DNA of 64,000 nucleotides from Fibrobacter succinogenes. GTDB lineage: Bacteria; Fibrobacterota; Fibrobacteria; Fibrobacterales; Fibrobacteraceae. The position numbers were made by a program, and so were the translations under genes. The stretch spans positions 62,001 to 126,000 of the forward strand of contig CACWPM010000003.1 of the NCBI GenBank assembly GCA_902762795.1, given 5' to 3'. Position 1 is the stretch's first letter. Every line of letters begins with the position of its first letter. Shown here in pieces: positions 13,038-52,445 of the stretch. The notes under the pieces were generated by a model. It was given only the letters and a program-made list of their open reading frames with translations. It made no database searches and had not been told where the DNA came from.

Positions 13038-16000
13038 CTACACAATTGTGTTGTCCAGGCAGAAAACTTCGGCGAGTTGCTTGTCGTCCATGTCGGCGAG
13101 CCATGTTTCGCCAGCGTTCACGGTCAAGTTGGCGATGGCTTTTTTGGTTTCGAGGAGCGCATTGATTTTCTCTTCGAAGGTGCCTTTGGTGATAAAGCGG
13201 TGGACTTGAACGTTGCGCTTTTGACCGATACGGAAGGCACGGTCGGTGGCTTGTGCTTCGATGGCGGGGTTCCACCACAAATCGTAATGGATGACTTGCG
13301 AGGCGGCGACAAGATTAAGGCCGGTGCCACCTGCCCTGAGTGAGAGAATGAGCACTTTGCAATCCGGATTTTCTTGGAAATCCTGGATCATTTCGGAACG
13401 CTGCGTTTGTGTGCAACCGCCGTGGTAGAAGTGCGTGCGGAGGCCGAGTTCGCTTTCGATTGTGGATTTTAGCAAGTGGCCCATTTCGGCAAATTGCGTG
13501 AAGATGAGAGTCTTTTCGCCTTGCTCTTGGATGGATGTCAGAAGGTCCAGGAGCATTTGCATCTTGCCGGATTCGAGCTTGCTGGACTTTTGGGATGCGG
13601 CGCTCTCGTCTTTCGTCTTTGGACTTTCGCTTCGCTCAATTCCCAACCATTCGGCTCGGTCATGCCCAACTCCCGTTGGTCGCGACTCTCGCCTTAAATG
13701 GTTGTCGTCTAACCCCTTGAGGAATGTGGCGGGATGGTTGCAAATCTGCTTGAGCGCGAGAATCATCTGCAAGATGATGCCCTTGCGTTTGAAGAGTGCG
13801 TGGGCATCGTTCGCTTTTTCGCTGAGTTGTTGTTCTTCTTCGAGCTGCGCCAAGAAATGGTCGAGGGTGCGTTTGTAAAGGGCGGCTTGCGAGCGCGTGA
13901 GTTCGGCGTATTCGTCCTGGATGATTTTGTCGGGCAAGTCGCTGATGATACTCTTGTCGGTCTTGAGGCGGCGCAGCATGAACGGTGCCGTGATTTTGCG
14001 GAATGTTTCAGCGACAATCTGGTTGCCGTTCTTTTGAATCGGCGTTTCGAACTTTTCGCGGAATTCGCTTGCGCTGGGGAAAAATCCGTGGTTCGCAAAA
14101 TCCATGATGGTCCAGAATTCCATGAGGCGATTTTCAACGGGTGTACCGCTCATGGCGATTTTCATGGGCGCCTTCATTTTGCGCAGTAGCTTGCTCTGTT
14201 CGCTATCGGCGTTCTTGATGTTCTGTGCTTCGTCGATGATAATCGTTTGCCATTCGTGTTTATCGAGTTCGGCAAAGTCCTTGCGGAATGTCGCATATGT
14301 TGTTAGTAGAACATCGGCATTGAATTTTTCGAGGTTGCGGCGACCGCCGTGATAAGCGAAGAACGTGAGGTCCGGTGCGAACTTCTTGATTTCGACTTGC
14401 CAGTTGCAAAGGAGGCCGGCGGGCATTACGACGATGGCTTTTTTCTCTGCGAATTTGCCTTCCTGCTTCATTTTGAGGAGGAACGTGATGACTTGTAGCG
14501 TCTTGCCAAGGCCCATGTCATCGGCGAGAATGCAACCGAATCCGATTTCCAAATTCTTGTACATCCAGGAGTAGCCGCGCATTTGGTAGGGGCGGAGTGT
14601 CGCGTTCAAATTTTCGGGCAGCGGAATTTCCGTTTCTGCACGCCATGCATCGAACTGTTGTTTGAAATCGCTCGCCATTTCGACCGGGATGTTGTCGCAT
14701 TCACCGGTGAAGCACGCTTGTACGAGTTTGGCTTGCGTGATTTCTGGAACGGAATCTTCTTCGAGGATTTCGTCTGTGGAGGTCGCGGCGTTTCCAGTAG
14801 CGCCCTCGGCTGCATTTTCAGAAGACGTTCCCGCATCATCCCCAGCAGCTTTTTTGCTTCTGCCGTTTTTCGCAGAGTCGCTAGACTTGCCTTCAATTTT
14901 ATCGCGGATGGATTGCAAATCCTGTTCGGTAATTTGTACGTAACTAGACTTGTATTTTAAAAGTCCGTCCGCTTGTTCGGCGAGTTCCAAGAATTCCTTT
15001 GCCGAAATGTTTTCATCACCGATGGCGATTTCCCAATCGAAGTCGAGCAGGTCGCCGGCAGTAAATGCTCCAAAGCTCATGCTACCTTGCAAACGCATTT
15101 TGGGTTTCGGCTTCCCGATGTTCAACAAGTTTTTTGGAATTTCGGCTTGGATGCCGAACAGTTGGAGCTTTTTAAGGCAATCTTGCAAAAAATCGAGAAG
15201 TTCGGCGCCTCGCATCAAAATGGGTTCACTCGCACGGCGTTCCAAATAGGCGTCAAGCGGCTTGAAGCCATCGGCAATGCCATTCAGAACGCTCAAAATC
15301 GAGAGCAATCGCGAGTCGTTGTTTTCAAATAGTTCCGAAAGCGGCGTGCGTCTCGCGGCATTTAGCTGTCCCGCGGCATTCCCGGCAGCACTTGATGCAT
15401 CATTTCCGGCGGCATTCGTGGCTTCATTCCCTGTGGCTTTCGTAGTCGCATTCCCGGCGGTACTTGCTGCGTCTTCGTCAAGTACAAAAACGTCCAGCGC
15501 CACATCTTCGTCCATTTCGCTACAGACAAAGAGAATTTGCGTACGGCAACCGAGGCAAGAATAAACCGAGAGCCATTGCTGGATTTTCCCCGGAATGGCG
15601 TGAGCGTTGTTTGCGAGCTTCCCTGAAACGCTATCGAAAAAGAACGAGAGCAAGTTGCCGTGATTCGTCTTGAGCGGAGTCTTGTACTTGCGTGCAAATT
15701 TCAAAAGCTGCGAGATGAACAGCGAAAGAATGTGCTCGGCGGGTTCTGCAATTTCAAAGAACGATTCGTCCTTACTTGTCCATGCGAGTTCTCGCGGGGC
15801 GGTGACTTCGAGGTCGGCGACAATGTACAGAATCTCGGGGAGCATCTCGGCAGGGAGCCAACGCATTTGCGCCACGTCTTTTCCGATCCAGAAAACTTGC
15901 GGATAAATCGCTCCGGTGCGTACAAGGTAAAATGCCACTTGCAACATCAAGTGCAAGTAGCGCACGGAATAGTGGTGCCACGAAAAATTGCCGGCGCTGA

Positions 16001-32280: not shown

Positions 32281-32325
32281 GGCGAGTGTCGCGACAGGCT
32301 GCTTGCAGACTGTCATGATTGAGCC
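32281..32325 (-). repeat. 45-bp fixed-flank/variable-arm hairpin unit
   Basis: On the minus strand the outer parts read GGCTCAATCATG and CGACACTCGCC, matching the flanks of the units at 51630-51831; the inner part is its own hairpin, GACAG...CTGTC enclosing CTGC-tt-GCAG. The unit is 45 bp, the same length as the 51.6-kb copies. It lies in the 256-bp spacer between the GT2 operon promoter side and the 3' end of speA; the rest of that spacer also holds a TCTCTCGTCT-type repeat (32408-32432) and GCCC-gaaa-GGGC. Confidence 0.8.
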
Positions 32326-32448
32326 GAAGATGCTGACGCAAAGCGTCAAAGTTCTAAGTGGTCAAAGAGCATCAATCCGGGGTGACATTTAGAATCTTTG
32401 ACTTACTCTTTCGTCTCTCGTCTGTAGCCCGAAAGGGCGTTCTCTCGT

Positions 32449-34347
32449 CTACTCCAGATACGTGTACCCGTAAAGTCCGGAACGATAGATGTTCAAGAAT
32501 TCCTTGCCTTCCTGAAGCGTAATCTTTCCTTCCTTCACAGAGCGCGTGACCCAGTTTTCCATGTTGCGGACAAGCGCCTTGTCGCTGAAGTTCACGTAGT
32601 CGAGCACGTCTTCCACGGATTCGCCGTCAATCACCTTGTCGATATCGTAGCCGCCCTTGTCGTTGCAGACAATGTGCACAGCGTTCGTATCGCCAAAGAG
32701 GTTGTGGAGGTCACCGAGAATTTCCTGGTATGCGCCGACGAGGTAAACCGCAATAAAGTACGGTTCGTCCTTCTTGATCGGGTGGAGCGGAATAGTGCGA
32801 GCCACTTCGCCACCGCGAACGAACATGTCAATCTTTCCGTCGCTATCGCAAGTCACGTCCTGAATGGTCGTTTCAATCGTCGGCTCTTCGTCCAAACGCT
32901 GGATCGGCATAATCGGGAACACCTGATCCACGCCCCAGCTGTCCGGGAGACTCTGGAACAAACTAAAGTTGCAGAAGTACTTTTCGGCCAAGAGTCGCGG
33001 GAGTTCGCTCAATTCATAAGGCGGATGGCGCAAGTCGCGGGCGAGCAAATCTACCTTGCGGGCGATGCTCCAGAACAAACGTTCGCTCATGGCGCGGGTC
33101 TGTAAATCCACGTCGCCCATCTTGAAACCGCTCAAGGTGTCGTCGTTAATTTGCATGGCATCGTGCCAGCTTTCGAGCAAGTTCTTCGGCGAAAGCCCCT
33201 TGTAAATGCTGTACAAGTCCTTCAATTCTGCAGGGGCGTCGTCGCTAATCTCGTGAACACTCTCGTCAAAGAAAGCCTGACCGGCCGTTTCAAGTACATT
33301 GAACACCAAGATGGAATGGTGCGCCGAAAGTGCACGGCCCGATTCCGCAATGATATTCGGGTGAGGAACATTGCCGTTTTCGCAAGCTTCGTACATCGCG
33401 TACACGACGTCGTTTGCGTATTCCTGGATGGAATAGTTCACGGAGCTCGCATTAGAACTGCGCGTGCCGTCGTAATCCACGCCCAAGCCGCCGCCCACGT
33501 CCACGAATTCAAGGCCCATGCCCATCTTTCTAATTTGAACGTAAAACTGCGAAACTTCGCGCAAGCCATTCTTGATATGGCGAATGTTCGTAATCTGGCT
33601 TCCCAAGTGGAAGTGGATGAGCTTCATGCAGTCTTCCATCTTCTCTTCCTTGATAAAGTCCAGAGCTTCCAAAAGTTCAGAACTATTCAGGCCGAACTTG
33701 CTGTGGTATCCGCCGGATTCTTCCCACTTGCCGCTGCCGGAGCTTGCAAGCTTGATGCGGATGCCGATATTCGGGCGCACGCCGATGCGGCGGGACAAAT
33801 CCACGACCAAGTGAAGCTCGTTCATCTTCTCGACGACAATGAAAATCTTCTTGCCCATCTTCTGCGCGAGGAGAGCAAGCTCGATAAAGTCTTCGTCCTT
33901 GTAGCCGTTGCAGATAATTAACGCATCCGGATTTTCCATGTTCGCAAGTACCGCGTGGAGTTCCGGCTTGGAACCTGCCTCGAGGCCGATGTTGAACTTG
34001 GAACCGTGACTCACCACTTCTTCCAAAACCGCACGCTGTTGGTTCACTTTGATCGGGAAAATGCTGTAATGGCCACCCTTGTAGCCATATTCAGTCGTCG
34101 CCTTCGTGAAGCACTCGTGAATCTTTTCGATGCGGCTGTCCAGAATATCCGGGAAGCGGAGCAACACCGGGGTCGAAACATCGCGCAAGGAAAGTTCCTG
34201 CACGAGCTCGTAAAGGTCGATGCTCGGCCCGCCGTTCTTGATCGGCGAAACCGTCGCGTGACCCTTGTCGTTGATGTCAAAGTAACTTACGCCCCAACCC
34301 TTTACGTTGTAAAGATCTCGGGAATCGTCAATGCGCCATTTTTTCAT
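32449..34347 (-). CDS. speA: Biosynthetic arginine decarboxylase
   Basis: A 632-residue PLP enzyme of the SpeA group (alanine-racemase fold), converting arginine to agmatine for polyamine synthesis. Visible features are the N-terminal WRIDDSRDLYNVKGWGVSYF, the PLP-Lys motif FPIKVNQQRAVLEEV, IGLEAGSKPELHAVL, HFHLGSQITNIRHIK, VDVGGGLGVDYDGTRS and a C-terminal GAYQEILGDLHNLFGDTNAVH with the catalytic Cys equivalent in TCDSDGKID. Length is normal. It lies downstream of a carboxynorspermidine-synthase-like gene in the same direction, 161 nt apart, so together they suggest a polyamine pathway. Confidence 0.94.
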   Translation of the reverse strand: MKKWRIDDSRDLYNVKGWGVSYFDINDKGHATVSPIKNGGPSIDLYELVQELSLRDVSTPVLLRFPDILDSRIEKIHECFTKATTEYGYKGGHYSIFPIKVNQQRAVLEEVVSHGSKFNIGLEAGSKPELHAVLANMENPDALIICNGYKDEDFIELALLAQKMGKKIFIVVEKMNELHLVVDLSRRIGVRPNIGIRIKLASSGSGKWEESGGYHSKFGLNSSELLEALDFIKEEKMEDCMKLIHFHLGSQITNIRHIKNGLREVSQFYVQIRKMGMGLEFVDVGGGLGVDYDGTRSSNASSVNYSIQEYANDVVYAMYEACENGNVPHPNIIAESGRALSAHHSILVFNVLETAGQAFFDESVHEISDDAPAELKDLYSIYKGLSPKNLLESWHDAMQINDDTLSGFKMGDVDLQTRAMSERLFWSIARKVDLLARDLRHPPYELSELPRLLAEKYFCNFSLFQSLPDSWGVDQVFPIMPIQRLDEEPTIETTIQDVTCDSDGKIDMFVRGGEVARTIPLHPIKKDEPYFIAVYLVGAYQEILGDLHNLFGDTNAVHIVCNDKGGYDIDKVIDGESVEDVLDYVNFSDKALVRNMENWVTRSVKEGKITLQEGKEFLNIYRSGLYGYTYLE

Positions 34348-51410: not shown

Positions 51411-51492
51411 AGACTCTAATGCGGCTGGATTGCCCTGAGCAACGTCGAAGGGCATCGGCACTAGCTGGCTTTATCAGTTGCTGAAAATTTGT

Positions 51493-51629: not shown

Positions 51630-51831
51630 GCCTCGGTTATGCCGGCGTGTAAGCACGCCGCCGCGACACTCAGCTCTTAGCAATGGCGCTAAAGCGCTTT
51701 ACTAAGAGCCTCGGTCATAGAAAAATGCAAGCATTTTTCTGCGACACTCGGCTTTTTAGTAATGGCGTTAAAGCGCCTTTCTCTTCGCCTCGGTCATGTC
51801 GGCGTGTGAACACGCCGCCGCGACTCTCGGC
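51630..51831 (-). repeat. Three 45-bp fixed-flank/variable-arm hairpin units
   Basis: Units at 51630-51674, 51708-51752 and 51787-51831 are each exactly 45 bp, starting 78 and 79 bp apart. On the plus strand each begins GCCTCGGT(C/T)AT and ends CGAC(A/T)CTC(A/G)GC. The inner parts are hairpins of different sequence: CGGCGTG-taag-CACGCCG, AGAAAAATG-caag-CATTTTTCT and GGCGTG-tgaa-CACGCC. Between units 1 and 2 is another hairpin (CTCTTAG...CTAAGAG enclosing GCGCT/AGCGC). They lie between the CBM gene terminators and the 3' end of rubrerythrin. Any reading frame across them is spurious. Confidence 0.92.
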
Positions 51832-51833
51832 TC

Positions 51834-52373
51834 TTAGAAATTTTCCTCATGTACTTCGAAGTAGGCTTGCGGGTGTGCGCAGACGGGGCAGACTTCCGGG
51901 GCCTTGGTGCCTACGACAATGTGTCCGCAGTTGCGGCATTCCCAAACTTTGACTTCGCTCTTTTCGAACACTTGTGCGGTTTCCACGTTCTTGAGGAGGG
52001 CGCGGTAGCGTTCTTCGTGCATCTTTTCGATGGCGGCGACTTTGCGGAACTTGGCGGCGAGAGCGGTGAAGCCTTCTTCTTCGGCGGTTTTTGCGAAACC
52101 TTCGTACATGTCCGTCCATTCGTAGTTTTCGCCGTCAGCGGCGGCTTTCAGGTTCTGGGCGGTGTCGCCAATGCCTTCGAGTTCCTTGAACCACAGCTTT
52201 GCGTGTTCTTTTTCGTTGTCGGCTGTCTTCTGGAACAAAGCTGCGATCTGCTCGAATCCGTCCTTTTTGGCGCGGCTTGCGAAGTAGGTGTACTTGTTGC
52301 GAGCCTGCGATTCGCCGGCGAACGCGGCTTCAAGGTTCTTTTCGGTTTGGGTTCCTGCGTATTTGTTTGCCAT
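51834..52373 (-). CDS. rbr: Rubrerythrin
   Basis: A 179-residue rubrerythrin, a peroxide-scavenging di-iron protein of anaerobes that reduces H2O2 to water. The N-terminal ferritin-like four-helix domain carries the iron ligands in [35 protein letters not shown] and [22 protein letters not shown]. The C-terminal rubredoxin domain has two CxxC-type pairs (WECRNCGH...[11 protein letters not shown]). ATG 52373 (MANKYAG) has AAAGGAG upstream, so the longer reading from 52412 is rejected. This fits an obligate anaerobe. Confidence 0.95.
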
Positions 52374-52445
52374 AATAACTCCTTTGGATAGGTTTGCTTT
52401 GAAATATACCACTTTTTATGCAGGGCTACGAAGCGCTGAGTTGTG

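Follow-up and report, generated by a model that had tools for sequence, protein, structure and literature searches.

Three hairpin-bearing repeats stand in tandem at positions 51630-51831 of the window, the 64,000-nt stretch of Fibrobacter succinogenes DNA analysed here (C3:62001-126000 of the genome that we call G000). They raise the question of what kind of unit can keep its shape while its core sequence varies. The sequence-only reading had placed five copies in the window, and all five were confirmed. A covariance model built from related element copies recovered each of them at E<=0.001 and gave no sixth match in the window. The same reading had given four copies as exactly 45 bp and the one in the SNF2 gene as 41 bp. 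This was too short: the element also includes an outer stem specific to each locus, along with a second hairpin, and whole inserts measure 89-99 bp. The features are as follows.

13603..13701, minus strand: 99-bp in-frame insertion (33 codons) holding the copy in the SNF2-like gene, missing from the orthologous gene of G014 and G039
13642..13706, minus strand: element copy within the SNF2-like gene; core 13653-13693; 59.6 bits
32269..32336, plus strand: solitary element copy; core 32281-32325; 50.7 bits
51618..51687, minus strand: element copy, the most diverged of the tandem trio; core 51630-51674; 41.6 bits
51675..51786, minus strand: second (A-type) hairpins between successive cores of the trio, at 51675-51707 and 51753-51786, recognised by sequence and fold
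51697..51765, minus strand: element copy, middle of the trio; core 51708-51752; 76.1 bits, E 4.9e-20 in that search
51776..51844, minus strand: element copy; core 51787-51831; 67.6 bits

The trio has a period of 78-79 bp, and its copy at 51776..51844 starts 2 bp past the stop codon of a 192-aa gene at 51834-52412 (minus strand). The outermost helix, P1, is TTACTAA/TTAGTAA in the middle copy and CAACCATT/AATGGTTG in the SNF2-gene copy. Heptamer-like repeats of the YTYTCGT type (CTCTCGTCTTTCGTC...) flank some elements (window 13603-13625 and 32410-32450; L053-L056, L064), and they also occupy the hypervariable SNF2-gene linker of relatives in which the hairpin element is missing.

We took as the folding strand the one beginning GGCGAG, which is the minus strand in four window copies and the plus strand in the copy at 32281. 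On this strand the scaffold is P1 – (NYAA/GNN) – GSC – tandem GA·GA – G-C – non-G bulge – P3 – G·U/C·A – variable hairpin B. The linear order is X1 – NYAA – GSC – GA – G – N – P3 – GC – hairpin B – AT – P3' – C – GA – GSC – GNN – X' – hairpin A – X2, where X1 is the left target. The flanks, which had been read as fixed, are not. A relaxed structural scan showed GTC/GAC to be a helix that changes on both sides, to GCT/AGC, GTT/AAC, GAA/TTC, GAT/ATC or GCC/GGC, and within the window the copy at 32281-32325 already deviates in its 3′ flank (GATTGAGCC). GGC/GCC is likewise exchanged for GCC/GGC in some copies.

The view that a hairpin is kept while its core varies was borne out. The B arms were 86% Watson-Crick paired, and arms swapped between equal-length cores were 54% paired (maximum 59%, 500 trials). 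There were 116 distinct cores among 125 unique elements, mostly in three length classes (18, 22 and 25 nt). The copies do not share one arm sequence, since 128 distinct inner sequences occurred among the 135 distinct aligned elements, and their pairing was far above that of swapped or shuffled controls. In an alignment of 40 flank-dereplicated copies, which was not fitted to the covariance model, we counted 212 two-sided compensated cells against 87.5±7.2 after shuffling. Helix 2 was paired at 97.5% in these copies, and the covariation score was 0.50 in register but about 0.15 after a slide of one column. The 135 distinct copies of the own genome gave 800 such cells against 272.7±13.8 (best slid register, 252), in an alignment that was fitted to the model and so leans towards it. 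All helices covary, the supposedly constant GTC/GAC included.

Between these freely changing helices, the non-Watson-Crick positions are fixed. Among the 135 own-genome copies, GA/GA was present in 131/135, G·U in 132/135 and C·A in 127/135, and the bulged base was A, C or T but never G. GGCGAG/CGAGCC is a classic sheared tandem G-A context. Where the outer stem meets the inner one, the internal loop often has YAA facing GAN (columns 10-13 and 91-94 of alignment A2) and resembles the UAA/GAN internal-loop motif of RNA. A kink-turn was considered and rejected by inspection, because the arrangement of the loop does not fit. The second hairpin is often conserved in shape as well (stem, GA, two pairs, a GAA or similar loop, two pairs, GA, stem), as in CTTGAGCGAAGCGAAAG, ATGAACGAAGTGAAT and CTTGAACAAAGTGAAAG, at L015, L013, L030, L028 and L160 and at window positions 13626-13645. 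These second hairpins are apparently another covarying family.

The two strands are not equivalent. In P2, x and P3, GU pairs were found 37 times and AC pairs 14 times (p = 0.0018). At the second core pair, 53 cases were G·A or A·G and none was C·T. Predicted folding was stronger on the folding strand in 107/135 copies with RNA parameters and in 114/135 with DNA parameters. Therefore, one strand is the folding strand. These fixed mismatches and this asymmetry agree with the earlier suggestion of a substrate whose shape matters. In hairpin B, GU (8) and AC (14) were both infrequent among 959 cells, and thus arms kept exactly complementary at the DNA level would fit better than drift at the RNA level.

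The family is large and narrowly distributed. In the own genome, the strict two-flank pattern matched 32 copies and its reversed form 0, and the relaxed structural scan found 144 elements against 0 in the reversed-sequence control. The covariance model gave at least 147 matches at E<=0.01, which is a lower bound because 150 candidates were scored. Copy number is put at about 150 per Fibrobacter genome. When Fibrobacter genomes were scanned with the strict pattern, as the sequence-only reading had proposed, matches appeared in 18/19 genomes of the genus and in 0/12 genomes outside it. With the covariance model, 79/151 genomes of the phylum had matches, all in one family (f1), comprising all listed members of genus g1 together with g6, g7, g8, g10 and g14. 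Among the same 151 genomes, none was found in g9, g11, g12, g13, g15 or the other sampled families. Every sampled Fibrobacter genome and five other Fibrobacteraceae genera have the element. A GTDB-wide pattern scan returned at least 97 matches with paired cores (mean 0.90) in records titled Fibrobacter; matches listed elsewhere were scattered and their cores unpaired, except in two MAGs titled Clostridiales. Their contigs, L266 (LVAV01000030.1) and L326 (JAISQX010000179.1), have copies with pairing cores, two of them in L326. These may represent misbinned Fibrobacteraceae or horizontal transfer. A phage origin was rejected, as all five viral pattern matches had unpaired cores.

The copies are insertions. 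Comparison of filled and empty orthologous sites revealed derived inserts of 89–99 bp flanked by degenerate target repeats of 9–14 bp. In the SNF2 gene, the 99 bp present in G000 and missing in G014 and G039 keep the reading frame and add 33 residues between GLDDN and AASQKSS. At the L022 site, an 89-bp stretch of G031 is missing in G004 and G014, with GAGTGCAAA(T/G)ATAG on either side. This site is filled in G000, G031 and G050 and empty in G001, G004, G006, G014, G039 and the more distant G045. Because most relatives and the distant G045 are empty, insertion rather than deletion would be the simpler reading. In the L028 array, one 89-bp unit is missing in G014; the duplicated sequence at this array comprises the final codons and the stop of the gene.

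Target repeats are often degenerate and of variable length, and both they and the stem complementary to the target exceed their controls. Among 58 dereplicated elements, 31% had flanking direct repeats scoring at least 9, compared with 3.5% of swapped pairs. The left target X1 was complementary to the post-element sequence (score at least 8) in 24%, compared with 2.6% of swapped pairs. P1 pairs the target with an inverse copy of that target. This inverse copy, X', is the reverse complement of target sequence also present in empty alleles (L022, L014, and the G004 and G039 copies at the L007 site); L029 is among the sites that do not have a target-complementary arm. The end arms of the element pair, but they are locus-specific and not common to the copies. 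Between L087 and L240, a synonymous change by the stop codon (GAGTTG in one, GAGTTA in the other) is matched in the post-element complementary arm (TATC and TATT), so that the outer stem tracks the coding sequence. As the copies share a fold and hardly any stem sequence, and the outer stem pairs with the site, the family is defined by structure, not by sequence.

Cores turn over at fixed sites. We compared 31 orthologous sites, with coding flanks about 72-98% identical. Among their 125 pairs of copies, the core was identical in 32 and less than 65% identical in 46. In the most different equal-length pair of each site, 48 base pairs had changed from Watson-Crick to Watson-Crick on both sides, and 10 had changed on one side or become unpaired. 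Orthologs at one unchanged site can hold wholly different cores. In the L028 array, the slot 1 core of G010 (L116) is the slot 3 core of G000 and G004 (L028, L104). To judge from these few genomes, cores appear not only to mutate but also to be swapped as whole units. In G045, the copy orthologous to the L014 site (L190) has a core with a further hairpin-rich repeat inside it (GTGTGCAAGGCGAG...GACGTC), which looks like the insertion of one repeat into the loop of the other.

Taken together, these observations suggest, with a probability of roughly 60%, a miniature mobile element of about 90 bp, specific to Fibrobacteraceae, that has no gene of its own and is recognised as a folded single strand. 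The identity of a copy would lie in the fold of one strand, a long hairpin with fixed non-Watson-Crick positions between paired helices of free sequence. A trans-acting enzyme, or the replication-repair machinery, would recognise the folded strand, as single-stranded DNA or as a transcript, and insert the unit, often just past stop codons and in the DNA of gene borders; the host would draw no benefit from it. Insertion duplicates 9-14 bp of target and leaves the inverse target copy between hairpin B and the second hairpin A; snap-back copying of the target arm would be its simplest origin. A mobile element defined by shape explains the insertions, the target repeats, the copy number, the restriction to a lineage, the fixed mismatches and the strand bias.

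A fuller version is tentative and rather doubtful. Here the fold and not the sequence would be the heritable identity, insertion would be self-primed by snap-back so that the outer stem is built from the site, and cores would be exchanged whole. The folded 3′ end would copy the adjoining target, each copy thus building its own outer stem, the second hairpin would turn synthesis back, and whole cores would be swapped between sites.

A different explanation is a cis-acting RNA of the host. The element would be transcribed with the upstream gene and act in its 3′ UTR, in mRNA stability or as a site for an RNase or a protein, and compensatory change would be driven by selection for the RNA fold. 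In 30 cases a sense stop codon is found no more than 30 bp upstream, whereas the antisense side gives 4. This asymmetry is confounded, however, because the A hairpin on the other side shifts the antisense distances, and it is no proof of an RNA function. Orientation relative to flanking genes shows only a slight bias (71:54), and by ORF calls the copies inside genes occur on both strands (18:26). The tolerance of GU in P2-P3 of the folding strand and the RNA-like look of the internal-loop motifs would agree with an RNA, but B helices almost free of GU (8/959 cells) are unusual for selection at the RNA level. Some orthologous copies are unchanged across species, and the 32/125 identical cores could also mean host selection. 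RNA-level selection explains the covariation and the adjacency to stop codons, but it leaves unexplained that close relatives differ in which insertions they have. We consider a host RNA unlikely.

The sequence-only reading had also suggested a template-switching generator of hairpins, which is possible given the X-X'-X flanks and the whole-core exchange. A replicating polymerase that stalls would turn back at hairpins and produce X-E-X'-A-X, with no dedicated enzyme, and jumps at short homologies would swap cores between copies. The inverse and direct target copies would be expected from such a process. It would also account for the wholesale core differences at fixed sites, with two-sided pair changes outnumbering one-sided ones by 48 to 10, and for the core shared between slots 1 and 3 of the L028 array. 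On its own, however, such a process would remove mismatches, yet over 94% of copies retain them, and it would show no preference for either strand. The narrow range, within part of a single bacterial family, is a further point against it. As the whole explanation it is distinctly improbable; as the copying step of a mobile element, template switching may have a part.

For the mobile element, no mobilising enzyme was found. RAYT/IS200 was rejected as the mobiliser: Y1_Tnp was found in 8/26 genomes and missing from the element-rich ones, and among 12 Y1 loci only two G033 copies carry an element, one each, whereas the other ten have none. These two loci (L073:1941-2005 and L081:1845-1909) are near-identical IS200-like copies with one element copy inside their common sequence. 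A reverse transcriptase was rejected as well, as RVT_1 is missing from G000 and most other genomes. Target site duplication and empty sites were present here (filled and empty orthologs; direct repeats above control), as in MITEs. These also share terminal inverted repeats with an autonomous transposon; here the end arms pair with each other and are locus-specific, and no autonomous partner was found.

The repeat had been called unlike REP elements and terminators. This stood for the tag sequence and the terminator T-run, but not as to kind, since small mobile palindromic repeats are known. GTAG was found in 3/135 copies on the folding strand and in 1/135 on the other, 0/135 start or end with CGTC, and a T-run directly after the hairpin occurred in 0/58; separate good terminator-like sites lie at 51491 and 51552. 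In Rfam, only a tRNA was matched in the window at the gathering threshold, and five element loci had no match up to E=1. The attC sites of integrons are recognised as folded single strands, have variable stem sequences and lie after stop codons. Paired RYYYAAC ... GTTRRRY boxes were present in 1/135 copies. The host genes keep their fixed chromosomal positions, for which reason integron-like cassettes were rejected. A diverged ordinary family of the REP/RAYT, intrinsic-terminator or attC type shares small palindromic repeats, frequent position at gene ends and tandem arrays, but with these tags so rare, no RAYT correlate and no Rfam match it is very improbable.

A family defined by shape alone is easily missed or split by repeat finders, because these work by sequence. 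With more than 130 different versions of a single fold, one bacterial genome amounts to a natural mutagenesis experiment, from which the non-canonical positions that matter, and the strand concerned, can be read. Thus, what mobilises the bacterial palindromes that lack a transposase (CGTC-REP, RPE, YPAL) becomes testable with a defined bait.

Among the nearest known systems, REP/REPIN and CGTC-REPs are likewise high-copy short palindromes at gene ends, and CGTC-REPs have no known transposase and form subsets with different stems (PMC3733652). The Fibrobacter element differs in having no GTAG or terminal CGTC and no associated Y1 transposase, and in its head-to-tail tandem units, second hairpin, fixed GA·GA, G·U/C·A and bulge. 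The mitochondrial hairpin elements (fungal double-hairpin elements and the sponge RHE) occur in ones or twos and are structurally repetitive and probably mobile (PMC2800124). They are organellar, the stems of RHE are described as conserved (PMC2800124), and the Allomyces elements are reported without target duplications, unlike the present element. Our literature search found no description of this repeat in Fibrobacter, which is weak evidence as subscription journals were mostly outside its coverage. None of the papers PMC2229807, PMC3733652 and PMC2800124 describes an element whose stems vary freely, with compensation, and whose outer stem derives from the target. If they are mechanistic, the target-complementary arm and whole-core exchange would be a mode of spreading absent from those three papers. 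Rickettsia palindromic elements (RPE) are long hairpins of about 100-150 bp found between genes and in frame within protein genes (PMC2229807), as is the 99-bp, 33-codon insertion in SNF2. Compared by description, RPE are sequence families with terminal inverted repeats, whereas here stem sequence is unconserved and the outer stem differs from locus to locus. For YPAL/RU-2 of Yersinia, both filled and empty sites are described, the target duplications vary over 3-26 bp, the inverted repeats are internal and not terminal, and the target is associated with dyad symmetry (PMC2229807). The Fibrobacter element resembles it in the empty and filled sites, the variable length of the duplications, the internal inverted repeats and the dyad-symmetry target. 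YPAL is a 168-bp sequence family, however, for which PMC2229807 describes neither compensated core diversity nor a target-complementary arm. RPE and YPAL are the closest known kinds.
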